NCBI GenBank assembly: GCA_017542245.1
Contig: JAFXXN010000192.1
Coordinates: 1-64,000, forward strand
Origin: Lachnospiraceae bacterium
GTDB taxonomy: Bacteria; Bacillota; Clostridia; Lachnospirales; Lachnospiraceae
Reading direction: 5' to 3'
Length of the DNA stretch: 64,000 nucleotides
Below are positions 154 to 16,012 of the stretch, piece by piece. The translations under genes and the position numbers were made by a program. Numbering within the stretch: position 1 is the stretch's first letter; every line of letters begins with the position of its first letter. Below the pieces are notes generated by a model. That model saw only the letters and a program-made list of their open reading frames with translations. It did no database searches and was not told the origin of the DNA.

Positions 154-201
154 AGTTTAACACAATACAGGAAATAGAAAAAGTCACCAAAAGTTACTTT
201 T
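154..201 (-). promoter_or_regulatory. Operator site 1 with -10, promoter firing leftward out of the window
   Basis: A 23-bp imperfect palindrome at 179-201 (arms AAAAGTCAC and GTTACTTTT, spacer CAAAA) is followed on the minus strand, after exactly 19 bp, by TAAACT (154-159), a 4/6 match to the -10 consensus. No -35 hexamer is visible, and the operator would cover that position. The same operator-19-(-10) arrangement occurs at 9609-9656, 12683-12730 and 15864-15911. The transcript would run through the repeat at 1-140 to a gene outside the window. Confidence 0.6.
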
Positions 202-991: not shown

Positions 992-1962
992 CGGTTCTCG
1001 ACCTCGTCTTCCACATCTTCAGTTGCCGAAGATTCCAATTCTTCTTCGATAGCCTGAAGTTTCTTTTTAGCTTCTTCAATCCGATGATCCAAAGAATTAT
1101 CCTCTTTTTTCTTTTTTAAGACTTTGGATACCCCAAAAGTAGCTGCTCCAGATACAGCTGCTGCAGCGATTCCTGCTCCGAACATGGCTGCGCCATTTAC
1201 TCCGGTGCTTTCTGTTGAACCTGATGCACTTGGCATCGGTGCTGATGCTACAGTATTTGTTGCAGAAACTGTTTCTGCGGAAATACCCGATGCTGCCGAA
1301 TCTGCCTCTTGAATATATACATTCTCGGTAATATTATTTACTACAGTATTATTTGTAATATTTACAGTGGAGTTATCCGTATAGTTTTCTGACATTGTCT
1401 GAGCTGATGCCGTAGGAGCTACATCCGCTGCAGAACTCTGTACTGAATTCTGAACGTCTACATTTACAGGAGTATTCTGCGTACCGCCGGAAGCCGTACT
1501 GCCTGTGCTTCCTGATGAACTTGAAGCGCCGGCAGGTTGTGAAGTGCCTGAAGAAGTTACTCCAGAAGATGCAGAAGTATGTGAAGTACCAGAGGATGCA
1601 GCCGCTGCCACGCCGCCTGCTGCCGCTGCGGCACCCGAAACATGTACCGGATTTCCATAAAAATCCTTTTTATGAGCCTTATATTCAGATATCTGTGAAA
1701 CCGAATGAGTCTGTGCAGTCTTATATGTATCGGTAGAATATATAAGTGCCTCGGCCAATGCCTCTAAAACAGTTGCACGCCTGTCCAAAAGCTCTGCCAA
1801 TTTTCCAAGTGACTGTCTTGCCTCATTGAACATCCTGTCATTTCCTATAGAGCTCCTGGCCTTTTTTACTACTGCAATAACATCTCTTAAATTCTTTGCG
1901 GCTTTTGAGTATATAGTCTTCTTAAACCTCAGCTCATCCACCGTTATTTTTATAGATGCCAT
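988..1962 (-). CDS. T7SS-associated protein: helical N-terminus, Ala/Ser/Thr-rich linker, TM, acidic coiled-coil tail
   Basis: I chose the ATG at 1962 (324 aa) because GGGAGG precedes it by about 5 bp. Residues 1-100 are predicted helical with heptad character, like a WXG100/LXG hairpin but without a W-x-G turn. Residues about 105-255 are low complexity and rich in Ala, Ser, Thr, Gly and Asn. A Gly/Ala hydrophobic segment (about 258-282) ends in KKKK and looks membrane-spanning. The tail is an acidic coiled coil. It sits between the WXG100 genes and the lectin lipoprotein. I do not recognise the family; a secreted or envelope-spanning component or substrate of the type VII apparatus is inferred from position. 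Confidence 0.7.
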   Translation of the reverse strand: MASIKITVDELRFKKTIYSKAAKNLRDVIAVVKKARSSIGNDRMFNEARQSLGKLAELLDRRATVLEALAEALIYSTDTYKTAQTHSVSQISEYKAHKKDFYGNPVHVSGAAAAAGGVAAAASSGTSHTSASSGVTSSGTSQPAGASSSSGSTGSTASGGTQNTPVNVDVQNSVQSSAADVAPTASAQTMSENYTDNSTVNITNNTVVNNITENVYIQEADSAASGISAETVSATNTVASAPMPSASGSTESTGVNGAAMFGAGIAAAAVSGAATFGVSKVLKKKKEDNSLDHRIEEAKKKLQAIEEELESSATEDVEDEVENR

Positions 1963-1974
1963 AAGCACCTCCCA

Positions 1975-2289
1975 TTATTTAAGCTTGATCTTCAGCTTGT
2001 TTGCGCTGTCAGTTACTTTCTGCTCATTGCTGCTGTATACATCAGCTGACTCTGAAAGAGTTAAGGAATATGTGTTAACAACATTCATTACTTCGTCGCA
2101 CTTTGCACGTATCGCTTCATATCTTGCATAAAACTCATTAGCTGCAGCTCCGGTCCATGTAGACTTTAAATTCTTTACAGCCTGCTGACTCTGTGCCAAA
2201 TATGCTTCCATATTCTTATAACTTGTCTTTATCTCATTTGAATAAGCCTTTAATTGTTTGGTATCAACTTTAATCTGTTCTCCTGCCAT
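1975..2289 (-). CDS. WXG100 family protein (canonical WTG)
   Basis: The 104-aa protein is a helix-turn-helix hairpin of the Esx/WXG100 type. The turn carries STWTGAAANEF, the canonical W-x-G. Near the C-terminus YSSNE matches the YxxxD/E secretion signal. It lacks a signal peptide, as expected for a type VII substrate. It is one of five consecutive WXG100-sized genes between the YukD-like gene and the linker protein, and a good ribosome site (GGAGG) precedes the ATG. Partner choice among the five cannot be read from sequence. Confidence 0.9.
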   Translation of the reverse strand: MAGEQIKVDTKQLKAYSNEIKTSYKNMEAYLAQSQQAVKNLKSTWTGAAANEFYARYEAIRAKCDEVMNVVNTYSLTLSESADVYSSNEQKVTDSANKLKIKLK

Positions 2290-2307
2290 TTTGTTTTTCC
2301 TCCATTT

Positions 2308-2610
2308 TTATTTCTTCAGATATTTGTGTACTAGATCGCTTGCCTGATTATCTGCTGCCTGATACTTTGCCGAATATTGTGTGAGTGCAACGCCCATTTC
2401 TTTCATAACTTTTACAAGTTCATTAAAATTTGCCTTGTCAGCATTGTACTGCTTAAGATATGCTGCACTCGCATCACTGCTCCATACTGCCGATACCTTC
2501 TGCATGTTTTCGTCAAGCTTGTTAACCTCAGTCTTAATCTTTGTAGAAAGATTTGTAAGTTCGTTTCCGGCTTTCTTTAATTTAGCCGCATTTACCTGTT
2601 GTGTTGCCAT
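2308..2610 (-). CDS. WXG100 family protein (WSS variant)
   Basis: A 100-aa, Ala/Lys-rich helical hairpin. The turn reads AVWSSDASAAY: Trp is kept but the Gly of W-x-G is replaced by Ser. A YQAAD near the C-terminus fits the YxxxD/E secretion signal. Length, absence of a signal peptide and location among four similar genes support the assignment. It probably forms a homo- or heterodimer exported by the EssC-type ATPase encoded upstream. Confidence 0.85.
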   Translation of the reverse strand: MATQQVNAAKLKKAGNELTNLSTKIKTEVNKLDENMQKVSAVWSSDASAAYLKQYNADKANFNELVKVMKEMGVALTQYSAKYQAADNQASDLVHKYLKK

Positions 2611-2669
2611 TAATGATTCCTCCTGTATTAGTTTTTATTTAGTCTTTTTAATAAGATAGTTACTATATT

Positions 2670-2960
2670 TTATTTAATCTTAGCCTTAGCTTCTCTGTCT
2701 GCCTTTTCAATAGAATTACATGCATTTGTCAAAAAAACACTTAATTTATTTATGTCATCTGCATTTGATTTTAAAGCTGCGTTAAGTTCTTCCATATATT
2801 TTGTAAACGCCTTTGAAGAATTTCCCGACCAGATTGATTCCAAATTCTTATCGGCATCCTCTATAGGTTTTACAGTCCCGTTTATCAACTGTGAAGAAGC
2901 CTCCTTTAAGAGCCTTGCCTGTTTTCTTACTTCTGTCAGATTAATATTTATATTTGCCAT
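2670..2960 (-). CDS. WXG100 family protein (WSG, no Y-signal)
   Basis: The 96-aa protein contains ESIWSGNSSKAF, a canonical W-x-G turn between two helices. Its C-terminal helix ends in KADREAKAK and has no tyrosine for a YxxxD/E signal, so it may be the partner subunit that is exported only as part of a heterodimer. Its start abuts the stop of the upstream gene at 2960 (one-base overlap), which implies coupled translation of these two as a pair. Confidence 0.85.
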   Translation of the reverse strand: MANININLTEVRKQARLLKEASSQLINGTVKPIEDADKNLESIWSGNSSKAFTKYMEELNAALKSNADDINKLSVFLTNACNSIEKADREAKAKIK

Positions 2961-3277
2961 TAGCGCAGCCCTCCGAATTTAAGTTTACTTGCCTCACTAA
3001 CAGTACTCTTTTCGGTGTTGTCATATATACCGGCCAATTCTTTTAGTACCGTTTCATAATTAGCCATGACCGAAAGAATATCTGATGCACTTTTCTTTAG
3101 CTGACCGGCAACCGCATTCAGTTCATCTGCGGATTCACCGGCATTTGATTCCAGCATCTTGCGGAATACTGCATTAACAGCTTCAACACTCTGGAATATA
3201 GTCTTTTTCACCTGAGCTATTTCCGATGCAGCTGCCACCAGTTGCGTGGTATCCACTTTATTTACATCTGCTGCCAT
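2960..3277 (-). CDS. Degenerate WXG100-like protein without Trp, likely partner of the next gene
   Basis: This 105-aa helical protein has the size and position of a WXG100 member, but the expected turn reads KMLESNAGES with no Trp. A YDNTE near the C-terminus fits the YxxxD/E secretion signal. The downstream neighbour (2670-2960) has the W-x-G turn but lacks the Y-signal. With the one-base overlap, this suggests an obligate heterodimer in which the two signals are split between subunits, as in some actinobacterial EsxA/EsxB-like pairs. Assignment rests on context and helical pattern. Confidence 0.75.
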   Translation of the reverse strand: MAADVNKVDTTQLVAAASEIAQVKKTIFQSVEAVNAVFRKMLESNAGESADELNAVAGQLKKSASDILSVMANYETVLKELAGIYDNTEKSTVSEASKLKFGGLR

Positions 3278-3289
3278 TTTCCTCCTCCT

Positions 3290-3604
3290 TTAACCGTATG
3301 CTTTACCCGCTTTATCAATTTTTGCCTTTATCTCTTCTTCTGTTTTTGCATGGTATTCAGCTAACGAACGCATTCCTGCCGCAACCTCGGCATATTGGGA
3401 TACCATCTCATTCAGCGCTTTTAGATCTTTTTCATAGCTCGTAAAGAATTTGGTCTTAACCTCGCTGCTCCAAGTGTTATTCAATCCCTCGATTATGGAT
3501 TGGAACTTCTGAACTCCCGCATTCAGATCGGCTACCGATCTGTCCACTTTTTCTGCTGCCGATACAAGAGCTTCCGTATCAACCGCTATCTTTTTCTGTT
3601 CCAC
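3290..3604 (-). CDS. WXG100 family protein (WSS variant), GTG start
   Basis: I place the start at a GTG (3604) because AAGGAGG lies 6-7 bp upstream; an upstream ATG at 3646 would add 14 basic residues and has no such site. The resulting 104-aa protein matches its neighbours in size. The turn reads NNTWSSEVKTKFF, with Trp but Ser in place of Gly. It is the first WXG100 gene after the YukD-like gene in transcription order. No clear YxxxD/E is seen; YHAKTEE is the nearest sequence. Confidence 0.85.
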   Translation of the reverse strand: MEQKKIAVDTEALVSAAEKVDRSVADLNAGVQKFQSIIEGLNNTWSSEVKTKFFTSYEKDLKALNEMVSQYAEVAAGMRSLAEYHAKTEEEIKAKIDKAGKAYG

Positions 3605-3716
3605 GATTTTCCTCCTTCCTTTTCCTTTTACCAATTTGATTAACAATTCTTAGTATTATCAGAAATGTTTTTGATGCATGATAATGGTCATACAGCTTTT
3701 GCTAAGTTAGTCAACG

Positions 3717-3971
3717 TTATACGATTACAAGTCGGCTTCCGTTTTTTATCCCTACCTTATGAAAGCTTTCACCATCTTCTATCAGTCCTTCAAGTTCCAC
3801 CGAACAGACTGCTATATCTTTTGTACCGTTAAAAATATCATAGCCTTCATATTCTCTGATAGAGGACATGATCTCTTTCTTTGCGATACCTACCTTCATC
3901 CTGTCATCCACCTGGAAATCATATGTTTTATCATTTCCCGGGATTCTTACTTCTATATTTATTTTTCCCAT
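3717..3971 (-). CDS. YukD/EsaB ubiquitin-like protein of the T7SS
   Basis: An 84-aa protein with an alternating beta pattern (KINIEVRIPG, YDFQVDD, LEGLIEDGE, and NGSRLVIV at the end), typical of the YukD/EsaB ubiquitin-like family that accompanies Firmicutes type VII secretion. I take the ATG at 3971; a GTG at 3980 would add three residues and lies in the same purine-rich ribosome site. It sits between the EssC ATPase gene and the WXG100 cluster, the usual neighbourhood. EsaB is a small cytosolic regulator or assembly factor in Staphylococcus; the role here is by analogy. Confidence 0.8.
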   Translation of the reverse strand: MGKINIEVRIPGNDKTYDFQVDDRMKVGIAKKEIMSSIREYEGYDIFNGTKDIAVCSVELEGLIEDGESFHKVGIKNGSRLVIV

Positions 3972-4002
3972 CCTTTTCACCTGTTATAAGTTGATTAAAT
4001 AT

Positions 4003-7000
4003 TTACTGTTCCCGTACATATGGTGTCATGATTTCGACAGTCTCTCCATCAGTCACTGTAATTGCTGAACCTGCAGGGCTTTTCCTGTCATATTCGCCTA
4101 CAGAAATATCAAAATCGAATATTCTCTGTTCTGCAAGCTCCCCGCCTAAGTGGAGTCCCGTCTTCATATCCATTGCCATACGGAAAGCATTATACTGACT
4201 GCACTCATCATATTCCCTAAAGGAAACTCCCATGATAAAATGAATCTTATGTTCTAAGCCCTTATCAAATACTATCTCCAGGAATTCACTCATATCGGCC
4301 GCTTCATTATAAATCGCCTCCATGAAGTCAACTGCCGAATTAATGATAAGTACTATCCTGTCATAATCCTTTAAAGCCTTCTTTACAGATGTTCCGGCCT
4401 CTCTGGCGTTATATACCAGTTCATTTCTTTCTGTAAGTTCAGGAACCATAGTCTGTTCCATAAACGCAAACAGATCTTCTCCGCTTGTTATATATCCGTC
4501 TGCATTTATTTCTCCGGCTGCCTCCTCCATCTCTCTTAAAGGTCCATCGAAAATAAATACCCTGCTGCCCTTTTCTTTCATCTGCTTTGCAGCAAAGGTA
4601 AGGAAATTGGTCTTTCCGCTCTTTGAACCGCCACTGACAGTATAAACCAGAGTCTTGTCAAGATCTGCCGAAACTACGCCGTCACCGTTTATATTCTTTC
4701 CGATGATCAGTCTGTCGGGATCCTTGGCACCTTTAAGAATTTCATCAGATGAAACAGCTCCATATTTATTCAGTGACTTTTTCGATATTCCTTCAATACC
4801 CGCAAATTTTTCGGATATTATCTCCCTGATAGTCAGCATAATACTTGACCCTGTGCTTCTTACAGGAAGTGCGGTCTGGAATTCCAAAGGATTTCCTTCT
4901 TTTATCAGGCCTCTTCCGCTTACCCTGTCATCAGGAAGGATTTCAGTTCTCATACCTATTACAGAATCATATTCAAACCTGTCAGGCAGCTGCATTCCTA
5001 TACCCTTTGTGAAACCTTGGCGGATCCTTCCTCTTAAATCTGAAGAATTATTGCAGCTGAATATGAGATATATACCATATCCCGCAGCTTCACGCGAGAG
5101 CTGAACGAACAGATCGTCATATTCCTCATACGACTCGTTAAATGCCGCATAATTGTCAATTATAAGCAATATCATCGGCATATCCTTTTCGACTGCCAGG
5201 TAATCACGAAATGAACCGATGCCTTTTTGTGACATTACATTCTTTCTTCTTTCCAGCTCATCCCTGATAAAGTTCATTACATTCTCTATCTTCTCATCCT
5301 CACCCTCAAGGCATACTGCTCCGGTATGAGGAAGTCCTGCAAATGCTGACATTGTTCGTCCGGAAAAATCAGCTATATAGAAGTTCACCTGATCTGCCGA
5401 ATAAGTATTAGCTGCGCTGAATACTATAGTCTCGATAAGAGTGGTCTTTCCTGCACCGGATGCACCGCATATCAGAAGATGTCCGTCACGGATAAAATCA
5501 AGCGAAACAGTAAACTGTCTCTGATTTTCTGGATCGTCCGCAAGTCCTATAGGGATTGCCAAATGTTCCGTATTTAAGCCTTCCGTATCAAGATCATCAA
5601 GATAAAGCATGCCGGGTAACGGTGCCAGCCATATCTGTCGGAGCGGCTCAATGTTATTCTCAGCAGAAAGCTTTCCTGCATATTTTACTATCTCATCAAG
5701 CTGTGTAACCTTATTCAGGTTATCTCCTGACTTTTTCTTTTTCTTATTTCCTATTTTCTCGGGCTTTCCTGTAATGCCCACCATCCTCACAAAGCCCTTG
5801 CTTCCGTCATCAAACGGTACATCAGGTGTATACTGTGCACCTGACCAGCCTGACTGAAATTCTTCGAAAATCTCATCGTTTCCGACCTGCATATATCCTC
5901 GGCCCGTACCTGTGATAAATGCAGCATCGGGACGCTTAAGCATTTCATTTGAATCCTGCTTGTCAGCAACACGGAGACAAATTCTGAAACGTGTATTGCT
6001 CCAGATTTCATCATCCACAACACCACCCGGTTTCTGTGTAGCCAAGATAAGATTAACACCCAGTGAACGTCCTACACGTGCCGCAGAAACAAGCGCCCTT
6101 ACGAATTCAGGCTGTTCCTTCTTTAATTCCGCAAACTCATCTGCTATAATAATCAGATGCGGCATGGGCTCATCAGCCTCGCCGTTACGATAGAGTTCTA
6201 TGTACTGGTCAATGTGTTTTATTTTATAGTCATTAAAAACTCTCTGCCTGTGCTTGATTTCCGCATTTATAGAAAGCAGCGCTCTGGTAGTACCATTTCC
6301 TCCGAGGTTTGTTATCATGCCTGCCAAATGAGGAAGACCCTCAAAACTCTGTGCCATTCCACCGCCCTTATAATCGATAAGGATAAAAGCCACCTCATGC
6401 GGATGATAATTTATTGCCATGCTTAAAATATAACTCTGCAGTGTCTCTGATTTACCTGAACCTGTAGTACCTGCTACAAGTCCGTGAGGTCCGTGGTATT
6501 TCTCGTGGATATCAAGATATACCGGCCTTCCGCCCGATTTCTGCCCTACCATTGCCTTCATGGTCTCATAAGTACGGTTTTCCAGCCATCTGTGGTAGAT
6601 ATCGAGGTCTTCAACCTTAGACACCTTGTACATGTCAAGGAATGTCAGCATATCGGGGATTTCAGAGTTACCCGAAGTATCCCTGAGTTCGAAATTAGCC
6701 AGGTTCCTGGCAAAATAATCCATAGCCGGTAAAGAAACGTTATCTAGGTTCAGACCGTTGCTGAATCCCTCCTGTGTAGATATAGTATATGCCTTAGCTA
6801 CGCCATTTTCATCACTGATAACAGTATTACACTTTGAAGGAAGCCTTTCCGCGGACTCCGCACAGAATACAACGGTAACTCCGGTATCTGCCGGCGGATC
6901 CATCAGGAATTTTGCTATCGGCTCTCCTGCTATAAGGGATATATCTGTAACAAATATCACATAATGAGGAAGAACCTTTTCTTTTTTATCCGAATTGTTT

Positions 7001-8586
7001 GTATTTTCTTTTTCCATTCTCTCTCTAAAGAGATCCGAAAGGAAATACATCACATCACCCAAAGATCTTGAATCACTGGCTACCATTCGAAGCTTTCCGT
7101 CAGGCGTCCATGTATGCGGAATCCAGCGTAAGAAACTTAGGTCATCATATTCCTTAGCCTGGAATGCATAACAGAGACGAAGCTCTGTATATGGAAAGTT
7201 TGAAGCAAGATTCAGTGTAAACAGCCTTATAAGTGCGTTTCTTTTGGCAGGATCGGAACTTACGATTCCCACTATCCTGTTATCATAAAGTGAAACAGAA
7301 ACAGGTACCTGTTTTAATGTTCCGTAATCCTTCCGTAATTTATCCGGGAGATCATTTAAGGGATCATAGCCTGAAACCAGATCCTCGCTTGGAAGATTTA
7401 TCTCGTTGGGAGCCTTTATATCACCAATACCAAGCCTTACTGAAAGGAAATCTCTGTGAGCACTGCTCTTTTCCCAAAGACGGGACTGTTTAACTCCTAC
7501 AAACGAAAGCATTTCATCAGCCGAAGGATATTGTTCTAACAGTACTCCCCTGTTGTATTCAGCCTTTTCGGTAAGCTTCTTTTCAAGCCTGTTTATATAA
7601 TCTATATATGTAGTTTTTCTTGACTGTTCACTCTTATTTGCTTCATTTTTATTATATTTATTATTTGCTATAGCCCATACTGCTGCCATAACCGCTGCGC
7701 CGCCTGACATTACAAGGCTCGAAGCTCCGAATCCGCCTTCGCCCGTCATCAGAGCTGCAAGAGCTATGGGTATTACCATCGTAAACGAAGGTCCAATAGT
7801 AAAAATCAAAGGCTGTGCCTTATATGGCTGCTGCTGTGCACAGCGTTCTATCGACAGGGACTCATCGTCTATATTCTTGAGCTGTCTCGGAGCACGAAGG
7901 AAGTAGACCTTCTCATATTCATTCTCTTCGCTCTCATCAGTAATCTCAGGAATGACTACCGGATCAAGCAGCTTAACCTTTACACTTCCCATCGGATTGT
8001 TTATTGCTATAAGCTGTCCTAAATATACTATCTTCAAACCTACAACATATATGACATCACCGTATTTTACCGGAACCTTTTGGGAAACTGCCCTTCCGTT
8101 TAGGAATGTGCCGTTTGTACTGTTATTGTCGGTTACGTATGTATTTTCGCCTTCAAAAAAGATTTCCGCATGCTTTTCCGAAACAAATCTGTTTGTATAA
8201 ATAATGTCACAGGAACTGCCTGAACCGATTGACAGAGACTGTATCTTATCTCTTCTTAACAGATACTTGGAAAAACCGGTGCTGTCCTCACCAACCTCGT
8301 CAACTTTTATCGAGAACCAGGTTTCATCCTTTTTTACCGTACCCTCAAGCACCAGCCCATTTTCGAGCACCGCCTCGGTTACCGGCTGGCCGCCCTTTAG
8401 AAGCTCATATTTTTTATCGATATTTATGGTCCATTTTCCATCCCAGACCTCTACATTCAGAACAAGCTCATCATCCAATCCTGAAATATATGGACTTACA
8501 GCAATAGGATGTTTTCTGTTATCCACTGCCGGAAAATAGTGCTCCGAGAACCCGTTTTCAAAGAACACTGTCATTAATAAAGACAT
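4003..8586 (-). CDS. essC: EssC/YukB-type FtsK/SpoIIIE ATPase with FHA domain
   Basis: The 1527-aa protein is the motor of type VIIb secretion. An N-terminal beta-rich segment precedes an FHA phosphopeptide domain (about residues 105-190, with GS..CDI, S.KHAEI and NGTFLNG). Two hydrophobic stretches (about 260-305) anchor it in the membrane. Three FtsK-type ATPase modules follow, with Walker A motifs GTTGSGKS (about 705), GASGAGKT (about 1042) and GGSKSGKT (about 1320); the first has a clear Walker B, HLIIIADEFAEL. Length matches staphylococcal EssC. I see no EsaA-, EssA- or EssB-like gene beside it, so the machine is either streamlined or uses the unfamiliar 312-aa membrane protein encoded just upstream. 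Confidence 0.95.
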   Translation of the reverse strand: MSLLMTVFFENGFSEHYFPAVDNRKHPIAVSPYISGLDDELVLNVEVWDGKWTINIDKKYELLKGGQPVTEAVLENGLVLEGTVKKDETWFSIKVDEVGEDSTGFSKYLLRRDKIQSLSIGSGSSCDIIYTNRFVSEKHAEIFFEGENTYVTDNNSTNGTFLNGRAVSQKVPVKYGDVIYVVGLKIVYLGQLIAINNPMGSVKVKLLDPVVIPEITDESEENEYEKVYFLRAPRQLKNIDDESLSIERCAQQQPYKAQPLIFTIGPSFTMVIPIALAALMTGEGGFGASSLVMSGGAAVMAAVWAIANNKYNKNEANKSEQSRKTTYIDYINRLEKKLTEKAEYNRGVLLEQYPSADEMLSFVGVKQSRLWEKSSAHRDFLSVRLGIGDIKAPNEINLPSEDLVSGYDPLNDLPDKLRKDYGTLKQVPVSVSLYDNRIVGIVSSDPAKRNALIRLFTLNLASNFPYTELRLCYAFQAKEYDDLSFLRWIPHTWTPDGKLRMVASDSRSLGDVMYFLSDLFRERMEKENTNNSDKKEKVLPHYVIFVTDISLIAGEPIAKFLMDPPADTGVTVVFCAESAERLPSKCNTVISDENGVAKAYTISTQEGFSNGLNLDNVSLPAMDYFARNLANFELRDTSGNSEIPDMLTFLDMYKVSKVEDLDIYHRWLENRTYETMKAMVGQKSGGRPVYLDIHEKYHGPHGLVAGTTGSGKSETLQSYILSMAINYHPHEVAFILIDYKGGGMAQSFEGLPHLAGMITNLGGNGTTRALLSINAEIKHRQRVFNDYKIKHIDQYIELYRNGEADEPMPHLIIIADEFAELKKEQPEFVRALVSAARVGRSLGVNLILATQKPGGVVDDEIWSNTRFRICLRVADKQDSNEMLKRPDAAFITGTGRGYMQVGNDEIFEEFQSGWSGAQYTPDVPFDDGSKGFVRMVGITGKPEKIGNKKKKKSGDNLNKVTQLDEIVKYAGKLSAENNIEPLRQIWLAPLPGMLYLDDLDTEGLNTEHLAIPIGLADDPENQRQFTVSLDFIRDGHLLICGASGAGKTTLIETIVFSAANTYSADQVNFYIADFSGRTMSAFAGLPHTGAVCLEGEDEKIENVMNFIRDELERRKNVMSQKGIGSFRDYLAVEKDMPMILLIIDNYAAFNESYEEYDDLFVQLSREAAGYGIYLIFSCNNSSDLRGRIRQGFTKGIGMQLPDRFEYDSVIGMRTEILPDDRVSGRGLIKEGNPLEFQTALPVRSTGSSIMLTIREIISEKFAGIEGISKKSLNKYGAVSSDEILKGAKDPDRLIIGKNINGDGVVSADLDKTLVYTVSGGSKSGKTNFLTFAAKQMKEKGSRVFIFDGPLREMEEAAGEINADGYITSGEDLFAFMEQTMVPELTERNELVYNAREAGTSVKKALKDYDRIVLIINSAVDFMEAIYNEAADMSEFLEIVFDKGLEHKIHFIMGVSFREYDECSQYNAFRMAMDMKTGLHLGGELAEQRIFDFDISVGEYDRKSPAGSAITVTDGETVEIMTPYVREQ

Positions 8587-8599
8587 CTCTGTACCTCCA

Positions 8600-9538
8600 T
8601 TACCCTAATGCCATATGGTCAATCATTATATTAAATACATCAAGTAGATCTTCAAGTTTAATATTTCTTGGACATGCTGTCTCATTCCTTGAAACATAGC
8701 AGTAAATTACAAGACACATATCATTCTTAATTCCGGTGATGATGGAGACCATATCCTCTCCAAGTTCAACATCGTCAAGCGAATTGGTGGCATAATAAGT
8801 ATCCTCGTCCTGCTTATTAAATGTATAATTTTTAGCCCCATCACTTTCCATAGCAGACGTAAGCGAATACTTCATCAATTCTTCACTGGAATATAGCAGT
8901 TTATCCTCCGCAGTTACAACATCCGCGCATATTGCCATGATCAAACGCTGCCCTGATTCCTCGTCGTGATAATCATACACATCATATGATTCGCCAAAAT
9001 CCATGTTGTCAATTCTGTCGAAAACTGATGGATATACATATGTAACTCCCGTTATTTCATTGGTTTGCCTATACCAAACAGCCTTTGAGGCTACTGCCGA
9101 AAGAGAGTTTTCAGATGAATTTCCCTTTCCTGAAGCGGCAACCACGATTATTACTACGATGGCCACAACCAAAACTCCTGCTCCTATCAATATAAAAGGA
9201 AGATATTTCTTTATATCAAACGGAGCCTTATTAGCATTTCTTTCAGCTGCCTTCGCTGCCTTTTCAGCCGCTTTTTGAGCAGCCAAAGCATCCTGTGCAG
9301 CCTTTTCCTCACGTGCCTGCTGCTCTAAAAGAGCCTGCTTTTCTTCCTGTTCCTTTTGGAGTGCCTGCAGGGTTTCCAATCGTTTGATTTCTTCCGCTAC
9401 CTGCTGTTTCTGGCGTTCAAGTTCGGCTATTCTTTCTTCCTCGGCAAGCTTTGCAGCTTTTTGTGCCTCCTCATCCTGTTGCTTTTTTCTTCTTGTCGCG
9501 AACAGTGCGTCAGCTTCGTTGTGGTTGTTTTCGCTCAT
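8600..9538 (-). CDS. T7SS operon membrane protein: cytosolic coiled coil, one TM, extracytoplasmic domain
   Basis: First gene of the secretion operon, 312 aa. Residues 1-110 are a highly charged Glu/Gln/Ala/Lys coiled coil; a single TM (about 114-135, with FILIGAGVLVVAIVVIIVV) follows; the remaining 175 residues form an external domain with SAVWYRQTNEITGVTYVYPS and two Cys. Topology is cytosol-in, domain-out. A similar topology in other type VIIb loci is filled by EssB/YukC, but I see no pseudokinase signature and do not claim homology. The ATG follows an AAGGAGA site. It lies 13 bp upstream of essC. Confidence 0.75.
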   Translation of the reverse strand: MSENNHNEADALFATRRKKQQDEEAQKAAKLAEEERIAELERQKQQVAEEIKRLETLQALQKEQEEKQALLEQQAREEKAAQDALAAQKAAEKAAKAAERNANKAPFDIKKYLPFILIGAGVLVVAIVVIIVVAASGKGNSSENSLSAVASKAVWYRQTNEITGVTYVYPSVFDRIDNMDFGESYDVYDYHDEESGQRLIMAICADVVTAEDKLLYSSEELMKYSLTSAMESDGAKNYTFNKQDEDTYYATNSLDDVELGEDMVSIITGIKNDMCLVIYCYVSRNETACPRNIKLEDLLDVFNIMIDHMALG

Positions 9539-9608: not shown

Positions 9609-9656
9609 ATTATATACGATTTATTTTGTATTTAAAAGTCACCAAAAGTTACTTTT
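9609..9656 (-). promoter_or_regulatory. Operator site 2 and promoter of the type VII secretion operon
   Basis: The 23-bp palindrome at 9634-9656 is identical to sites 1 and 3. Nineteen bp downstream on the minus strand lies a perfect TATAAT (9609-9614). At the -35 position only TTTTAA is present, so the promoter probably needs an activator. The operator would be centred near -43. It overlaps the stop codon of the upstream response-regulator gene. The 5' leader before the first gene is about 65 nt. Confidence 0.8.
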
Positions 9657-10272
9657 TACCCTCCTTCAGATATTTTCTGATATCCGCACGGGTTTTCATA
9701 TATGTCTTACTAAGAATTGTTGACGAAACATGTTTTATGTAACCATGCTTACGATGCATTCTTTCAGCTATCTCAACATTTGAATACCCGTCTGCTATAT
9801 ACTTTGCCACTATGAGTTCCGTACTGGTCAGAAGCTTTGTTAAATCTTCCAAGGCCATCGGATCATAATCTGCAGCTGTGGTACTGACTGTTATTCTATT
9901 CTTTATCTGGGCTAAAAAAATACTTTTTACAAATGGCTTTGTAATATAATCTGCTGCCCCGCACTCGTACCCTCTTACCTGAAAATCCGGTCCATCCATT
10001 CCCGTCAGAAAAATAATGGGCGTGTTCTTTGATGCGTTTATTTTTCTGATTTCTTCAAGTGTCTGATATCCGTCCATCCCCGGCATATCAACATCCAATA
10101 GAATTAACCGGTATTCAAAACCTTTTGAAAGATACTCTAATGCCTGTTCCCCGGATTTTGCCAGAGTCACAGCGTATCCTGCATTTATCAGTATATCCTC
10201 GATAGTATTCAGCATCCTGATGTCATCATCTACACATAAAATTTCGATATCTGCTGTTTTACTGTTTTCCAT
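9649..10272 (-). CDS. Response regulator, receiver plus LuxR-type HTH (pair 1)
   Basis: The 207-aa protein has an N-terminal receiver (acidic pocket LCVDDD, phospho-acceptor Asp in LLLDVDMPGMDG, Thr/Ser switch in IIFLTG, Lys in ITKPF). The C-terminal 65 residues are a LuxR/FixJ-like helix-turn-helix (LTSTELIVAKYIADGYSNVEIAERM). Its start overlaps the end of the hybrid kinase gene by 14 bp, so the two are translationally coupled. It is the best candidate to bind the palindromes flanking this region. The second copy at 12796-13425 is a close paralog. Confidence 0.9.
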   Translation of the reverse strand: MENSKTADIEILCVDDDIRMLNTIEDILINAGYAVTLAKSGEQALEYLSKGFEYRLILLDVDMPGMDGYQTLEEIRKINASKNTPIIFLTGMDGPDFQVRGYECGAADYITKPFVKSIFLAQIKNRITVSTTAADYDPMALEDLTKLLTSTELIVAKYIADGYSNVEIAERMHRKHGYIKHVSSTILSKTYMKTRADIRKYLKEGKK

Positions 10273-12649
10273 CCTCTGTCACCTCGTTAATAACACTTTC
10301 GGCATTACGAAACTCAATATTTTCAATGTTCTCCTTTATTTTATTTAATTTTTCATCTTCACCCTTCAACTTATAAAGTTCATCTAAAACTCTTAGTGCC
10401 GGCGTCTGTTTTCCTCTCCTGACTGCTTCCAAGAGTTTCTTCCATAATTGTGTTTCATCCGTATCATCTTCTCTTTCGTCAGAACTTTTCAGCAGAACCG
10501 GCTTTATCTTCTCAAACTCATTTAAAAATTCTGTAAGGCCCTTTTCCACTCTGTTCCACTGCATTATAAAATGCGGAAGTATTGAAATTACGTATTCGCT
10601 GTCCCCATCCTTTATCCTGCGTTCCAATCGCCTTGCGGAATAGTAAAGATCCTCGCCTCCGACATTACCGGCATTTCCTTTTATTGCATGTACAAGTTTT
10701 GCCGCATTCTCATAATTTCCCGAATCAATATAATTCTTTAACTCTTCTATGCTCTCCTGTGAATTTTTAATAAAGTATTCGCAGACTCTCGAAAACTGAA
10801 GTATGTCGCCGCTGAGATGCTTTAAAGCGAGTTTTAATGAAATATCATGTTTCTTTAGGATTCTCTCTAATTTAACTCTTGTATCCACAGGCAGCTCATC
10901 CTGATTGTCTTCTTTCACAACTGAAATCAGGCCGGAAGGGAGGTACTTTCTCAATACATTTTCGAGCATCGAACTATCTATAGGTTTCAAAAGGTAATCA
11001 TCAAAACCTTTTGACAAAAACATCTCTTTCTTTTCCGGCGATGCATCCGCAGTAAGTACCACTATCGGTATTCTCCTTGCCTTCTCCTCATCTGTCTTTC
11101 TCATGGTTTCCATAGCCTCTACGCCGTCTATTTCCGGCATCATATAATCCATGAGAACCAAATCATAATCCTTATCCTGATATTTTTCGTATGCATCTTT
11201 TGCTGAACCGGCAGTATCTATTTTAACCATAGTCCTTTTAAGCAGGGATTTTACCACCATAAGGTTCATATCATTGTCATCAACAACCAAGAGCTTTGCC
11301 TCAGGTGCTATAAAGAAATCATTGCTCCCTACATTCTCATCGGTTATACTACCGGTCTTAAGCATTACCTCAAACCAGAATACGCTGCCGACACCATATT
11401 TACTTCTGACCTTTATCTCACTGCCCATAAGATTTGCCAGTTTATTTGATATTGCTAGTCCCAGTCCTGTGCCTTCTATACTTCTGTTTTTTTCGATATC
11501 AACTCTCTCAAAACTCCGGAATATCTTTTGCTGGTCTTCGTCTGCTATGCCGTTACCCGTATCCGAAACTTCAAAATGTAAAAGTACATCACGCGAAGTA
11601 TCGTTATCTGCTATCTTTATTCCCGAATCCTGAACAGTAAAAACTATTGTGCCCTTTGAAGTATACTTAACGGCATTTGAAAGAAGATTGGATATGATCT
11701 GAGAAAGCTTCCGCATGTCGCCCACGACTATTTCGGGAATTTTCTTGTCGATATCCATTACGAATTCCAAGCCTTTTTTTTCAGCTTCTTTTCCGAAAAA
11801 AGTCCCCAGACTCTGGATCATCTTCAAAATATTAAAATCTTCTTCAAAAAGGACTTCTTTTCCCATATCAATCCTTGAAAAATCAAGGAACTGATTCACC
11901 ATAAACAGAAGGTGATGTCCCGCACTGTCAACATTCTGCGCATATTCGTTTATCTGGGCATCCTCTGACTCGCGCAATATCATCTCGTTCATACCGAGGA
12001 GCATATTTATGGGTGTTCTGACTTCATGGCTGATATTTGCCAAAAGAGTACTTTTTGCCTGACTGTTCTCCTCTGCAATTTTCTGCTGCTTCCTGTACTG
12101 TCGGATATAGATCATGAAGATTGCCGCAATTCCGACAGATGAAAAGATTATTCCTGTCAACTGATCTGCAAACTGTGTATTAACAGAATCAAAATTACTG
12201 ATATATTCAGGGTGGCTGTATCCAAATATACATACTCCTATATAATACATAATCTGGATAAACTCCATAATATACAGAAGAATCCCTTTATACATAAGTA
12301 CCGTAAAAATAATCCCAAACGCAAAGAAATACGGCATGGAACCGTTAAGTCCTCCCATTTCAAAGAACAACCACGTAAAGAGTCCCATAAAAATACTCAC
12401 GGATGTGACCAGATACCCAATTATATATTTTTTGGTGATATGTACAAACATTATAAGGCATAAGCTTGCACCGGCAGCCAGTAAATTTATCAATGCTCCC
12501 ATAAAATCCGTCAGGGTAAATAAGGACTGAATGCTGCCTATCAAGCTGACAAGAATACCGGCCGTACCAAGCATCTTGAAAAAAGTTACATCCAAGTCAT
12601 TCTCTTCTCTGTAAAATTTTATTATTGCAGTCTTTATTTTATAAATCAT
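10259..12649 (-). CDS. Hybrid sensor histidine kinase with receiver and Hpt (pair 1)
   Basis: A 796-aa membrane kinase. About six TM segments occupy residues 25-185 with little extracytoplasmic sequence, so it may sense the membrane or a small ligand. HisKA follows (LLANISHEVRTPINM, phospho-accepting His near 207), then HATPase (N-box LLSNAVKYT, G-boxes DTGNGIAD and GTGLGLAIS), a receiver (LLVVDDNDMN, LMDYMMPEIDG, LLKP), and a C-terminal Hpt (VHAIKGNAGNVGG). This is a complete His-Asp-His phosphorelay in one chain, presumably ending on the receiver encoded next. It is about 80% similar by eye to the kinase at 13433-15805. Confidence 0.93.
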   Translation of the reverse strand: MIYKIKTAIIKFYREENDLDVTFFKMLGTAGILVSLIGSIQSLFTLTDFMGALINLLAAGASLCLIMFVHITKKYIIGYLVTSVSIFMGLFTWLFFEMGGLNGSMPYFFAFGIIFTVLMYKGILLYIMEFIQIMYYIGVCIFGYSHPEYISNFDSVNTQFADQLTGIIFSSVGIAAIFMIYIRQYRKQQKIAEENSQAKSTLLANISHEVRTPINMLLGMNEMILRESEDAQINEYAQNVDSAGHHLLFMVNQFLDFSRIDMGKEVLFEEDFNILKMIQSLGTFFGKEAEKKGLEFVMDIDKKIPEIVVGDMRKLSQIISNLLSNAVKYTSKGTIVFTVQDSGIKIADNDTSRDVLLHFEVSDTGNGIADEDQQKIFRSFERVDIEKNRSIEGTGLGLAISNKLANLMGSEIKVRSKYGVGSVFWFEVMLKTGSITDENVGSNDFFIAPEAKLLVVDDNDMNLMVVKSLLKRTMVKIDTAGSAKDAYEKYQDKDYDLVLMDYMMPEIDGVEAMETMRKTDEEKARRIPIVVLTADASPEKKEMFLSKGFDDYLLKPIDSSMLENVLRKYLPSGLISVVKEDNQDELPVDTRVKLERILKKHDISLKLALKHLSGDILQFSRVCEYFIKNSQESIEELKNYIDSGNYENAAKLVHAIKGNAGNVGGEDLYYSARRLERRIKDGDSEYVISILPHFIMQWNRVEKGLTEFLNEFEKIKPVLLKSSDEREDDTDETQLWKKLLEAVRRGKQTPALRVLDELYKLKGEDEKLNKIKENIENIEFRNAESVINEVTEDGKQ

Positions 12650-12682
12650 AGTTTTTATTTTTCTCCGAAAATTTACAATAAA

Positions 12683-12730
12683 AATATACTACAATATCTT
12701 CAATTTAAAAAGTCACCAAAAGTTACTTTT
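12683..12730 (-). promoter_or_regulatory. Operator site 3 and promoter of kinase/regulator operon 1
   Basis: An exact copy of the 23-bp palindrome at 12708-12730 is followed after exactly 19 bp by TATATT (12683-12688) on the minus strand. The -35 position is TTTTTA, not a consensus hexamer. The promoter drives the hybrid kinase gene beginning at 12649. If the encoded regulator binds here, the operon is autoregulated. Confidence 0.78.
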
Positions 12731-12739
12731 TTATAAACT

Positions 12740-12774
12740 AATAGCTATGGCGATTCAAAAAAGCCATAGCCATT
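12740..12774 (-). terminator. Stem-loop after kinase/regulator operon 2
   Basis: A 12-bp stem (AATGGCTATGGC with GCCATAGCTATT, one mismatch) lies just downstream of the second response-regulator gene. The U-run after it on the minus strand is poor (AGTTTATAA), so termination may be partial and allow read-through into operon 1. Confidence 0.55.
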
Positions 12775-12795
12775 TTATGCAGTCAGGTTAATGCC

Positions 12796-13425
12796 TCATT
12801 GATTGTCCAGTATACCTTCTTTTAGGTACTTTCTGATATCTGAGCGCTTTTTTATATTGGTTTTGGTTAATATTGATGAAACTATGTGTTTTACATAACC
12901 ATATGTGTAATGTGTCTGTTCTGCTATTTCAGGATTTGAAAGTCCGTCAGCCACATACTTTGCAACTGTCATCTCTAAATCCGAAAGAGATTTTCCAAGT
13001 TCTTCCAAAGCTTTTGCGTTATATTTTGAAGATGATAATGGAACGGATATCCTGTTTTTTATTCTTGCCAGAAAAACACTTTTTATAAAAGGTTTAGTAA
13101 TATAGTCCGCGGCACCGTATTCCCAGCCTCTTATCTGAAAATCAGGACCATCCATTCCGGTTAAGAAGATTATAGGTATATCTTTTGAACTGTCAACCTC
13201 TCTTATGGCTTCGAAGGTCTGATAGCCATCCATTACCGGCATATCTACATCCAGAAGTATCAGCTGATACTCGATGCCTTTTTTTAGAAAATCCAGCGCC
13301 TGTTTTCCTGATTTTGCCAACGTAACGGTATATCCCGCGTTCATTAGGATATCCTCTATAATATTCAGCATGCTTATATCATCATCAACACACAAAATCC
13401 TGCCTTCTGACATTTTTCCGACCAT
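12796..13425 (-). CDS. Response regulator, receiver plus LuxR-type HTH (pair 2)
   Basis: The 209-aa paralog of the regulator at 9649-10272. The receiver has LCVDDD, the phospho-acceptor in LLLDVDMPVMDG, and ITKPF. The HTH reads LEMTVAKYVADGLSNPEIAEQ. The recognition-helix region (QTHYTYGYVKHIVSS here, RMHRKHGYIKHVSST in pair 1) is partly conserved, which is consistent with two regulators reading related operators. Start choice is uncertain between the first ATG and an in-frame ATG four codons later. The gene follows its kinase by 7 bp. Confidence 0.88.
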   Translation of the reverse strand: MVGKMSEGRILCVDDDISMLNIIEDILMNAGYTVTLAKSGKQALDFLKKGIEYQLILLDVDMPVMDGYQTFEAIREVDSSKDIPIIFLTGMDGPDFQIRGWEYGAADYITKPFIKSVFLARIKNRISVPLSSSKYNAKALEELGKSLSDLEMTVAKYVADGLSNPEIAEQTHYTYGYVKHIVSSILTKTNIKKRSDIRKYLKEGILDNQ

Positions 13426-13432
13426 CCTTTTA

Positions 13433-15805
13433 CTATCGTGCGACTATCAGTGCCTCTGCTTTATCAAACTCAATATCCTTGATATCTTTTCTTATTTCAT
13501 CTAATATCCCGTTTTCTCCAATAAGTTCTGAAAGTTCATCAACATATTTTAGAGAAGGAGCCTGATTTCCAAGCTGGACCGCTTCTAAAAGCGCTTCCCA
13601 AAGCTCCCTTTCGCTCATCGGCTTTTCATCCCGGGCATCGTTTTTCATCAGTTTGGGCTTTACTTTTTCAAACTCTTCCAAAAATTCTTTAAGCCCTTTC
13701 TCCACTCTGTTCCATTTCATGATAAAGAAGGGAAGGGCGGCAAGACTGTATTCTATATCTCGGTCTTTTAATCTCCGCTCTAATCGTCTGGCAGAATAGA
13801 ACAGGTCTTCCCCGCCTACGTTTCCGGCATTACCCTTTACAGCATGAACAAGTATCGCTGCTTCTTCATATTCTTCCGAATCAAAATACGTCCGAAGCCT
13901 TTTGATATTCTCCTGCGAATTCTTAATAAAATACTCACATACTCTTGAAAACTGTAATATATCTCCGCTTAAGTGTTTCAAAGCAAGTTTCAGCGAAATA
14001 TCATGTTTCTTCAATATCCTTTCCAAAGACAGCCTTATTTCCACGGGAAGCTCATTCTGTTTATCATCATTTACTATGGTTATAAGACTTTGAGGGAGAT
14101 ACTTTTTTAATGTATTTTCTAATAGGAAACTGTCGACAGGTTTTAAAAGATAGTCATCAAAGCCCTTTTCCAAAAACTGTTCCTTTTTATCCGGTGTCGC
14201 ATCTGCAGTAAGAACCAATATCGGAATCCTTCTGTTCCTTTTTTCATCCATTTTTCTGAGGGTTTCCATAGCTTCAATACCGTCTATCTCAGGCATCATG
14301 TAATCCATCAGAACCAGATCGTAATCTTTTTTCTGATATTTTTCATAGGAATCCTTTGCTGATTCCGCAGAATCAATCTTTACCATAGTCCTTTTCAGCA
14401 ATGACTTTACTACCATTATATTCATGTTATTATCATCAACTACCAGAACTTTTGCCTCAGGAGCTATAAAGAATTCATCCGATTCCACCTCTTTATCAGT
14501 TTCCTTGCCGGTTTTAAGTACCGCTTCAAACCAAAACACACTGCCAACTCCATACTTGCTTCTGACCTTCACTTCTGTTCCCATCAAGTTTGCCAGTTTG
14601 TTTGAAATAGCAAGTCCCAGCCCGGTTCCTTCAATGCTTCTGTTACTTATTATATCAGCTCTTTCAAAACTTTGGAAGATTTTTTTCTGATCTTCTTCCG
14701 CTATCCCCTTTCCTGTGTCGGAAACTTCAAAATGAAGCAGTATATCCTTTCCCGTATCATTATCTGCCATTTTCATGCCCATATCCTGAACAGTAAAAAC
14801 TATAGTTCCCTTCGTGGTATACTTTACGGCATTTGAAAGAAGATTGGAAATTATCTGGGACAATTTTCTCATATCGCCAATAACTATTTCAGGAATCTTT
14901 TTATCGATATCCATTACAAATTCAAGTTTTTTCTTCTCGGCTTCCTTACCAAAAAAAGCTCCAAGACTCTGTATCATCTTCATTATATTAAAATTTTCTT
15001 CAAAAAGAGCTTCTTTGCCCATATCAATCCTTGAAAGATCAAGGAACTGATTTACCATAAAAAGAAGGTGCTGTCCTGCATTATCTACATTCTGGGCATA
15101 TTCATTTATCTGTGCATCCTCAGATTCACGAAGTATCATCTCGTTCATCCCGAGAAGCATATTTATGGGTGTCCTTATCTCATGGCTTATATTTGCCAAA
15201 AGCATACTCTTTGCCTTGCTGGACTCCTCTGCTATTCTCTGCTGCTTACGATATCCCCTGATATACAGCAGAAATGCCATTCCTATACAGAATGCCGAAA
15301 GGAGTATACCCATAAGCTGATCTATAAACTGATCCCTAAAAGTCTCAAATTGGATTATGTACTCCGGATGATAATATCCGAATATACAGACTCCCATATA
15401 GTAAAGAACCTGAACCGTTTCCATTATATAGAGGAGAAGTCCTTTGTACATCCTTAATGTAATGATCAGCCCTAATGCAAAAAAATATGGCATTGAACCG
15501 TTTATTCCTCCCATCTCAAAGAACATCCAGGTAAAAAGCCCCATAAATATTAAGCCTGAAGCTATCAGATTTCCAATAATATACTTCTTTGTAACGTGTA
15601 CAAAACACATAAGGCATACACATGTTCCCGCCATTATAAGGTTAAGAATAACCCCCATGTATCCTGACTGAGTAAGCAATACCTGAAAACAACCGATAAG
15701 ACTGACTATAGTACCTGCCGAAGCAAGCATCTTAAACAAGGTTACTTCCATTTCATTTTCCTGTGTATAAAATCTTTTAACATTCGTCTTAAATCTGCTA
15801 AACAT
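13433..15805 (-). CDS. Hybrid sensor histidine kinase with receiver and Hpt (pair 2)
   Basis: A 790-aa paralog of the kinase at 10259-12649 with the same order: about six TM segments (residues 22-190), HisKA (LLANISHEIRTPINM), HATPase (LLSNAVKYT, DTGKGIAE, GTGLGLAIS), receiver (VLVVDDNNMN, LMDYMMPEIDG, LLKP) and Hpt (VHAVKGNAGNVGG). Kinase cores are almost identical while membrane regions and C-terminal tails differ more. This suggests tandem duplication followed by divergence of input or partner. The duplication places each pair under its own copy of the shared operator. Confidence 0.93.
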   Translation of the reverse strand: MFSRFKTNVKRFYTQENEMEVTLFKMLASAGTIVSLIGCFQVLLTQSGYMGVILNLIMAGTCVCLMCFVHVTKKYIIGNLIASGLIFMGLFTWMFFEMGGINGSMPYFFALGLIITLRMYKGLLLYIMETVQVLYYMGVCIFGYYHPEYIIQFETFRDQFIDQLMGILLSAFCIGMAFLLYIRGYRKQQRIAEESSKAKSMLLANISHEIRTPINMLLGMNEMILRESEDAQINEYAQNVDNAGQHLLFMVNQFLDLSRIDMGKEALFEENFNIMKMIQSLGAFFGKEAEKKKLEFVMDIDKKIPEIVIGDMRKLSQIISNLLSNAVKYTTKGTIVFTVQDMGMKMADNDTGKDILLHFEVSDTGKGIAEEDQKKIFQSFERADIISNRSIEGTGLGLAISNKLANLMGTEVKVRSKYGVGSVFWFEAVLKTGKETDKEVESDEFFIAPEAKVLVVDDNNMNIMVVKSLLKRTMVKIDSAESAKDSYEKYQKKDYDLVLMDYMMPEIDGIEAMETLRKMDEKRNRRIPILVLTADATPDKKEQFLEKGFDDYLLKPVDSFLLENTLKKYLPQSLITIVNDDKQNELPVEIRLSLERILKKHDISLKLALKHLSGDILQFSRVCEYFIKNSQENIKRLRTYFDSEEYEEAAILVHAVKGNAGNVGGEDLFYSARRLERRLKDRDIEYSLAALPFFIMKWNRVEKGLKEFLEEFEKVKPKLMKNDARDEKPMSERELWEALLEAVQLGNQAPSLKYVDELSELIGENGILDEIRKDIKDIEFDKAEALIVAR

Positions 15806-15863
15806 AGTTTTATATATACTTCCTGTAGTATCTGCAAAATTTTTATGATTTATCTTCAGTAAT

Positions 15864-15911
15864 AGTATAACATACTTTTTTTATATAAGGAACTAACTAA
15901 AGGTGACATTT
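15864..15911 (-). promoter_or_regulatory. Operator site 4 (diverged, flipped) and promoter of kinase/regulator operon 2
   Basis: At 15889-15911 16 of 23 bases match the palindrome when read in the opposite orientation to sites 1-3; the GGTGAC and TAACT cores are kept. On the minus strand TATACT (15864-15869) follows exactly 19 bp downstream, as at the other sites, and the -35 position (TTCCTT) is not consensus. On the other side the operator lies upstream of the glutamine synthetase promoter, 29 bp (19 plus about one helical turn) from its -10. Confidence 0.65.
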
Positions 15912-15946: not shown

Positions 15947-15963
15947 AATTCATTGAAATGAGC

Positions 15964-16012
15964 AAAGGCGTTCACTTTAGTTTGGGCTAAAACTGGATGC
16001 CTTTATTTTATA
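15964..16012 (+). promoter_or_regulatory. Leader stem-loop/attenuator upstream of glutamine synthetase
   Basis: AAAGGC (15964) pairs with GCCTTT (15999-16004), with an inner stem TTTAG/CTAAA and hexaloop TTTGGG, followed by ATTTTAT. It reads like an intrinsic terminator inside the leader. An ANTAR protein is encoded in the same operon, and ANTAR proteins act by antitermination at paired hexaloop hairpins (NitR beside clostridial glnA is the precedent). Control of glnA by this attenuator is therefore inferred. The loop is G at position 4 but not A at position 1 of the ANTAR consensus. Confidence 0.5.

Follow-up and report, generated by a model that had tools for sequence, protein, structure and literature searches.

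The question raised by this locus is what a set of repeated palindromic sequences does in front of a type VII secretion operon and of two neighbouring operons for a sensor kinase and a response regulator, and which protein reads them. The locus belongs to the window, that is, the whole stretch of 64,000 nucleotides that was analysed, which is a contig of a Lachnospiraceae bacterium (JAFXXN010000192.1, here C68) taken from its base 1; the assembly (GCA_017542245.1, here G000) comprises 4.72 Mb in 203 contigs. The four nearest named contigs come from metagenome-assembled genomes of uncultured Lachnospiraceae or Clostridia, whose sources include water-buffalo reticulum and horse faeces. Comparison of sequences among genomes suggests that the two response regulators encoded in the window (RR1 and RR2), and regulators of their type in relatives, probably bind these sites as activators beside the −35 position. 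Four copies of the putative operator, each with a −10 hexamer, were located (genomes, contigs and loci carry the letters G, C and L throughout):

179-201 (core 183-197), minus strand: operator copy 1, behind the lectin gene and reading off the contig edge; matrix score 41.5
154-159, minus strand: −10 hexamer TAAACT, extended (preceded by TGT), serving copy 1
9634-9656 (core 9638-9652), minus strand: operator copy 2, overlapping the RR1 stop codon, upstream of the type VII operon; matrix score 40.0
9609-9614, minus strand: −10 hexamer TATAAT, serving copy 2
12708-12730 (core 12712-12726, GTAACTTTTGGTGAC), minus strand: operator copy 3, upstream of the HK1-RR1 operon; matrix score 46.0
12683-12688, minus strand: −10 hexamer TATATT, serving copy 3
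15889-15911 (core 15893-15907, GTCACCTTTAGTTAG), minus strand: operator copy 4, diverged, upstream of the HK2-RR2 operon; matrix score 38.5
15864-15869, minus strand: −10 hexamer TATACT, extended (preceded by TGT), serving copy 4

An earlier note on this DNA had described a 23-mer that occurs in three identical copies and a diverged fourth, always 19 bp from a −10 hexamer, and both positions and distances were reproduced. Copies 1 to 3 show zero mismatches across the 23-mer, all four copies are directed along the minus strand, and the spacing of 19 bp (23 bp from the 15-bp core) is the same in all of them; three matches at up to 3 mismatches were obtained in 0 of 100 shuffles. Also the position of the operator centre at about −43 was recovered, the core extending from −50 to −36 with its centre at −43 when the −10 hexamer is taken as −12 to −7. 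However, the palindromes are not exact as had been said, since of the 11 arm pairs 8 agree in copies 1 to 3 and 4 in copy 4. The statement that these promoters have no −35 holds on the whole: the −35 is indeed poor, with TTG in 0 of the 4 window promoters, but the edge of the operator itself lies in the −35 register (17-bp spacing).

A matrix made from 47 promoters of other genomes ranked precisely these four sites as the top four places of the window (46.0, 41.5, 40.0 and 38.5). The places ranked next, scoring from 17.7 to 2.3, are the same sites on the opposite strand or overlap one of them, the first non-overlapping place scored −0.3, and five local shuffles did not exceed 6.9. The training set contained promoters of G216 that are homologous to those of the window, and the test is consequently independent of genome but not of ancestry. 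This ranking refutes for practical purposes the idea that the sites arose by chance or by recent local duplication of one window promoter. Duplication is suggested by the three identical copies and by the paralogy of the two kinase-regulator operons (RR1 and RR2 are 68% identical), but the flanks and spacers of the copies differ, a further site lies on another contig (C53) and the geometry recurs in other genomes at unrelated genes, which leaves this explanation with hardly any probability.

The spacing was then compared in related genomes, as the earlier note had suggested, at sites for which the flanks of matches to STAACYWWWNGTKAS were newly fetched. As −10 we accepted a TA...T hexamer with at least 4 of 6 bases matching, to one side of the core and 22 or 23 bp away from it. 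The fixed distance was kept in the regulator-positive genomes, where 32 of 44 new sites had a −10 at 22/23 bp and the other adjacent offset pairs gave a mean of 5.8 (standard deviation 2.4, maximum 13). Alignment of 61 distinct promoters (51 at 23 bp and 10 at 22 bp, selected for that spacing) revealed flanks that are A-rich upstream and T-rich downstream, symmetric with the core. TG, which was not a selection criterion, precedes the −10 in 24 of the 51 and in 5 of the 10 promoters, and TTG is present at the −35 register in 15 of the 51. A true consensus −35 was considered and rejected because the TT[G/C/T] edge is indistinguishable from the operator's own symmetric extension. Of the marks of class II-type activated promoters, an operator centred near −41 to −43, a constant distance to the −10 and a poor −35 were found.

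The constant distance, the poor −35 and the frequent extended −10 point to an activator that touches RNA polymerase, since a repressor would tolerate variable placing. Repression by the same regulators, which would then repress their own operons and keep the type VII operon silent in the absence of a signal, would fit the operator edge that reaches the −35 position and the many −10 hexamers near consensus, at which a bound dimer could block RNA polymerase. We regard it as unlikely because one spacing occurs in 51 of the 61 aligned promoters and the other 10 are off by 1 bp (in a set chosen for 22/23 bp), because unselected histograms show the same spacing peak, a constancy that repressor sites do not need, and because the poor −35 of most promoters suits activation. 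A role of the palindromes as transcription terminators or intergenic RNA hairpins is very improbable. Copy 2 does overlap the stop codon of RR1, copy 1 is behind the lectin gene, T runs end the arms, and moderate RNA folds (about −5 to −10 kcal/mol) are predicted at the C53, G205, G208, G216b, G209, G201 and G011 sites; nevertheless, folding is weak in the window copies (0 to −4.9 kcal/mol) and in the sites of G112, G203 and the G216 type VII locus (0 to −3.4 kcal/mol), and the sites stand upstream of genes at a fixed distance to the −10.

The proteins to which activation is here attributed are encoded among the sites, in the minus-strand order HK2, RR2, HK1, RR1 and type VII cluster (314-9538):

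13433-15805, minus strand: HK2, hybrid histidine kinase HisKA-HATPase-REC-Hpt with a hydrophobic N-terminus (Pfam)
12796-13425, minus strand: RR2, REC plus GerE/LuxR-type response regulator (Pfam: Response_reg 90.1 bits, GerE 27.9, cut-off 23.5)
10259-12649, minus strand: HK1, hybrid histidine kinase HisKA-HATPase-REC-Hpt (Pfam)
9649-10272, minus strand: RR1, REC plus GerE-like response regulator (Pfam: Response_reg 95.2 bits, GerE 20.8, below the cut-off of 23.5)

HisKA, HATPase, REC and Hpt each exceed the Pfam cut-off in both kinases, and RR1 aligns with RR2 over the full length despite its sub-cut-off GerE. With that reservation for RR1, the domains agree with the previous description of two LuxR-type response regulators and their phosphorelay kinases between the sites. 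Residue D60 (LLLDVDMP/ILLDVDMP) is invariant in 4 of 4 aligned regulators and we take it to be the conserved phospho-acceptor aspartate.

That these regulators read the motif is argued by an enrichment that follows the regulator, by the sites at kinase-regulator operons and by covariation between protein and site. The regulator family (E<=1e-28) was detected in 11 of the 24 genomes of the genus, own genome included; the motif gave 112 matches versus 22 for the control in these 11 and 22 versus 19 in the 13 others. Among 14 genomes of the family without a regulator match at E<=1e-20 there were 8 matches versus 49 control matches, and a −10 at 22/23 bp in 0 of the 8. G112, which belongs to another genus and has a close regulator, gave 3 matches versus 1, at two places that both have TATAAT at 23 bp, and a site is present at its kinase operon. 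In the genomes with distant regulators the corresponding figures were 2 versus 1 (G011), 0 versus 2 (G063) and 0 versus 1 (G079).

As for the loci themselves, a scan of genome contigs kept 80, which were left out beyond the first four (L069-L072), where identity was 46% or lower. Loci were considered close when their regulator shared at least 60% identity with RR1, which gave thirteen: the two of the window, ten of the genus and that of G112. In 11 of these 13, the kinase gene or its operon is preceded by a site that has its −10 at 22/23 bp. Farther away, G011 (regulator 35% identical) has a site directly behind the regulator gene with TAGAAT at 23 bp, and G212 has the palindrome, without −10, at a distant regulator locus. 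No site was found at the loci of the second kinase-regulator pair of G205 and of the pair of G079, and none was seen in G063 (3.8 kb of contig covered) or at L072.

In addition, the outer base of the half-site varies with the recognition-helix residue that follows 'VK', which presumably corresponds to Asn183 of DosR if the equal-length match ranges are gapless and the residue numbering used is right. Where this residue is Q (G201, G203, G209 and G213) the outer G:C ratio is 10:28, and where it is K, R or H (G000, G204, G205, G208, G221 and G112) it is 39:3. These ratios were counted by hand, and the Fisher value of 6.6e-11 was calculated with 10:32 versus 39:3, some palindromes entering in both orientations. 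G216 has one regulator of each kind and a mixed outer base. Another DNA-binding protein, co-occurring with the regulators in the genus, could be thought to read the motif, as G206 and a few other genomes contain sites without a close regulator. This seems to us quite improbable in view of the sites at the kinase-regulator operons of 11 of the 13 close loci, of the enrichment that follows the regulator, of an outer base that follows the regulator's own recognition helix and of the site at the kinase operon of G112, from a different genus.

Several observations nevertheless weigh against binding and activation by the RR1/RR2-type regulators. At 12 of the 44 new sites, among them all three extra places of the own genome, there is no −10 at 22/23 bp, and those genomes of the genus that are regulator-negative show a spacing peak no weaker than the others (10 of 15 versus 1.3). 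G221 and G204 have the regulator and have sites elsewhere, but their kinase operon is without site; in G221 a one-mismatch candidate lies about 820 bp upstream of the kinase, with TACAAT at 22 bp and a score of 6.2. No motif match at all was obtained in G063 and G079, whose regulators are about 48% and 33-35% identical, respectively, and the type VII cluster of G205 has no site and adjoins a different kinase-regulator pair. With respect to covariation, G011 is an exception, its regulator having Q yet its sole site being of the G type. Moreover, the covariation draws on related genomes: on the regulator tree the Q versus K/R/H label requires 4 changes (shuffled mean 4.9), but branches with good support force only one, so that a single origin is possible. 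A convincing site exists in G206, which is rated 100% complete, before a lipoprotein gene (G206:C11:9641, L248:1541; −10-like hexamers at 23 bp on both sides), and a full-length regulator was not found in this genome, where 16 RR2 matches (E<=1e-12) end by residue 150 of 209. Sites with a −10 but no close regulator were also found in G210, G211, G215 and G217, whose assemblies are less complete or carry more contamination; for G211 completeness is 64%, and of the four sites in it three are similar in sequence to sites of G204. Finally, the own assembly, with an estimated completeness of 97.06%, has an estimated contamination of 8.58%, which is a caveat. The earlier note had the regulators activating the type VII operon and their own operons, and most of the comparative tests fit this proposal, whose binding and activation steps we infer.

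According to the mechanism that we propose, the hybrid kinase (HisKA-HATPase-REC-Hpt) would hand its phosphate to the receiver domain of the regulator; hybrid kinases with Hpt imply a His-Asp-His-Asp relay, which is established for kinases of this kind. The phosphorylated regulator would then bind two half-sites one helical turn apart, [G/C]TNAC-N5-GTNA[G/C], in a core that has its centre near −43 and ends just before the −35 position, and RNA polymerase would be recruited to a promoter in which the −35 is weak and the −10 is good and often extended. By acting on their own two kinase-regulator operons the regulators would exert positive feedback, and the other targets would be the type VII operon, the probable lipoprotein operon across the gap from site 179 and the C53 lipoprotein gene.

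The composition of the half-sites gives a lead, not a result, on how the two regulators might share an operator. All five sites of the own genome consist of one TAAC half and one TCAC half. G000 and G216 are the two genomes that encode an RR1-type regulator together with another paralogue, and such [G/C]TAAC/[G/C]TCAC hybrids make up 12 of their 17 promoters, as against 2 of 35 in the remaining regulator-positive genomes, a single contrast of two related genomes with the rest; the sites were collected with a pattern in which one half or both had to be TAAC, TCAC/TCAC sites being outside its reach. The TCAC half is promoter-proximal in 11 of the 12 hybrids. RR1 may read TCAC and bind together with its paralogue, and a rather doubtful extension of this would be that two paralogous phosphorelays meet on one operator through an oriented RR1-RR2 heterodimer, forming a two-signal AND gate at the type VII operon. 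Against the heterodimer, hybrids also occur in G211 (2 of 3) and G217 (1 of 1), in which no such regulator was found. If it were true, the Q versus K/R/H divergence at one recognition-helix position would separate the operator dialects of the paralogues. At L161:15979 (G216), between essC and the next type VII gene, there is a symmetric GTCACCAAAGGTGAC without −10 at 22-24 bp, which could be a pure TCAC-type site.

The genome scan with the palindrome pattern that the earlier note had suggested did not give any enrichment: at up to 3 mismatches 47 places were found in the own genome versus 83 in the control, and at 0-1 mismatches only the three window copies. A large own-genome regulon of the 23-mer palindrome is thereby rejected. 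With shorter patterns, 12 places were found against 14 in the control, and 10 matches against 4. A fifth promoter was nevertheless recognized at G000:C53:124291, with an extended TATCCT 23 bp from the core, the sole such −10 outside the window; transcription is estimated to start 97 nt before the start codon of a lipoprotein gene. As this promoter has the same geometry, the regulon of four promoters originally proposed stands for its window members but is too small, the own genome having at least five. Candidates on C54, C78 and C86 were discarded for having no −10 at 22/23 bp on either side, and those on C47, C160, C179 and a second place of C53 (136829) for having none at 23 bp, in the matched orientation only.

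Copy 1 reads towards the contig edge. Window bases 1-124 are part of a repeat that matches at least 40 places (40 scored of 172 candidates). This repeat, of about 140 bp, occupies positions 1-141 and 59508-59647 of the window, with full or partial copies elsewhere, and it separates the 179 promoter from its presumed gene and ends the contig. Contig C149 starts with the same 124 bases reversed, and its genes match those located in G216 behind the lectin gene and the third site: a lipoprotein (49%), fn3-like proteins (48%, twice), a lipoprotein (51%), a further gene (68%) and then a glutamate-dehydrogenase-like start. The order is nearly the same, C149 being without the leucine-rich-repeat gene of G216 and having the second lipoprotein gene inverted. 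In G216 the equivalent of site 179 stands directly before the first lipoprotein gene. Most likely, the 179 promoter would thus serve the C149 lipoprotein operon across the contig gap; since C146 also starts with the repeat, this assignment draws on synteny.

The targets predicted for the own genome are the two kinase-regulator operons, the type VII operon and the lipoprotein genes, with at least five promoters. For a wider view, frames with a minimum length of 45 aa were sought downstream of 67 oriented sites, some of them counted in both orientations or from loci that overlap, and 61 such frames were obtained. A strongly hydrophobic N-terminus is present in 44 of these 61, kinases included, and a lipobox too in 10 (by a simple rule, scored without a background set). 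By eye, the downstream genes encode kinases of the HK family, repeat-rich proteins with signal-like N-termini, lipoproteins and two glycosyltransferase-like proteins. Type VII clusters follow the site in G000, G216 and G208, as well as in G201 with one gene inserted between. The G208 cluster has its site although the kinase-regulator pair is on another contig, an arrangement that fits action in trans. The type VII cluster of the window comprises the following genes:

8600-9538, minus strand: first gene of the type VII operon, 312 aa, one hydrophobic segment (by eye), without confident family
4003-8586, minus strand: EssC-type secretion ATPase (TIGR03928 equivalog, 1130.7 bits, cut-off 778.4; FHA and FtsK_SpoIIIE)
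3717-3980, minus strand: 87-aa protein, putatively EsaB/YukD-like by position and size, without family match
1975-2289, 2308-2610, 2670-2960, 2960-3277 and 3290-3646, minus strand: five WXG100-type small proteins
988-1968, minus strand: 326-aa protein with a hydrophobic C-terminal segment (by eye), without family
314-991, minus strand: C-type-lectin-domain lipoprotein, last gene of the cluster (Pfam Lectin_C; lipobox by eye)

The first of the WXG100-type proteins was assigned by Pfam and the other four by TIGR03930 (E 1.3e-11 to 5.4e-7, all below the curated cut-off). With its predicted EssC ATPase and WXG100 proteins, the cluster bears the mark of a type VIIb secretion system (T7SSb). No match to EssB/YukC, EssA or EsaA was obtained among the proteins scanned (10 versus Pfam, 8 versus NCBIfam). 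A homologue of the 8600-9538 gene is directly behind the site in G216 and G208, and follows the inserted gene in G201.

Some further elements were noted at these and related loci. Between the HK2 promoter and gene 16051 (glutamine synthetase-like, by eye), a hairpin-like element at 15960-16006 (by eye) is conserved upstream of the kinase gene in L161 and L162; an Rfam search of the window gave no match. At L164:7027 (G208), 91 bp upstream of the kinase promoter site, an operator core is contained in a long and strong hairpin (−22 kcal/mol) without a −10 at 23 bp on either side. In G011, about 246 nt separate the site promoter from the next called frame, and this region (L038:1285-1487), where a terminator-like inverted repeat was seen by eye, possibly encodes a small RNA. 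In G205 (L172:12763, contig C77), a divergent kinase gene and the type VII cluster flank another palindrome, around GTGTCCCTTAGGGAC. It is followed by TATAAT at 23 bp and stands next to a paralogous kinase-regulator pair (regulator about 32% identical); this is perhaps the same architecture with another operator. Likewise, L174 (G079) contains two copies of TATACTTTTAGTAC, at 10256 (minus strand) and 12478 (plus strand), with a −10 at 23 bp and near a distant kinase-regulator pair; this is a different operator at the same distance.

These data provide a concrete regulator, operator and target list, all of them candidates from sequence, for type VII secretion in uncultured Lachnospiraceae, and the same motif and distance are found at dozens of promoters of related genomes. 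The list would join the secretion machinery, likely exported proteins and their own sensors in one switch, and the covariation of regulator and operator makes specificity in this response-regulator family testable by a one-residue swap.

Among known systems, DegU is of the LuxR/NarL class. The closest precedent is Bacillus subtilis, in which DegU-P at high level activates the yukEDCByueBC type VII (Ess) system under DegS-DegU control (PMC3701619, a paper in which no DegU operator was seen). As in DegS-DegU, a two-component response regulator would control a type VII secretion operon of Bacillota; unlike it, the locus described here has a hybrid phosphorelay kinase beside the operon and a fixed-spacing [G/C]TNAC-N5-GTNA[G/C] operator. 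Structure matches to the regulator numbered 21, including DosR (1zlj), VraR (2rnj) and NarL (1je8), with a best E of 2.4e-5 and 0.0064 for DosR. The receiver plus GerE helix-turn-helix is shared with DosR/DevR and other NarL/LuxR-type regulators, whereas the operator sequence differs from that of DosR and the sequence match is weak. Bases are contacted in DosR by Lys179, Lys182 and Asn183 (PMC4082495 and PMC5861037); for NarL, no paper with residue numbers was found. With LuxR-type class II promoters our candidates share a dimer site that abuts the −35 at a fixed distance to the −10; they differ in having a phosphorelay input instead of a small signal molecule and a frequent extended −10. In LuxR-type class II activation the operator is near −42.5. 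No description of this operator or regulator was found in full-text searches of an open-access collection, six operator sequences included. NarL/LuxR-type activators with an operator beside the −35 are a known kind, to which the operator-regulator set predicted here would be a new addition.

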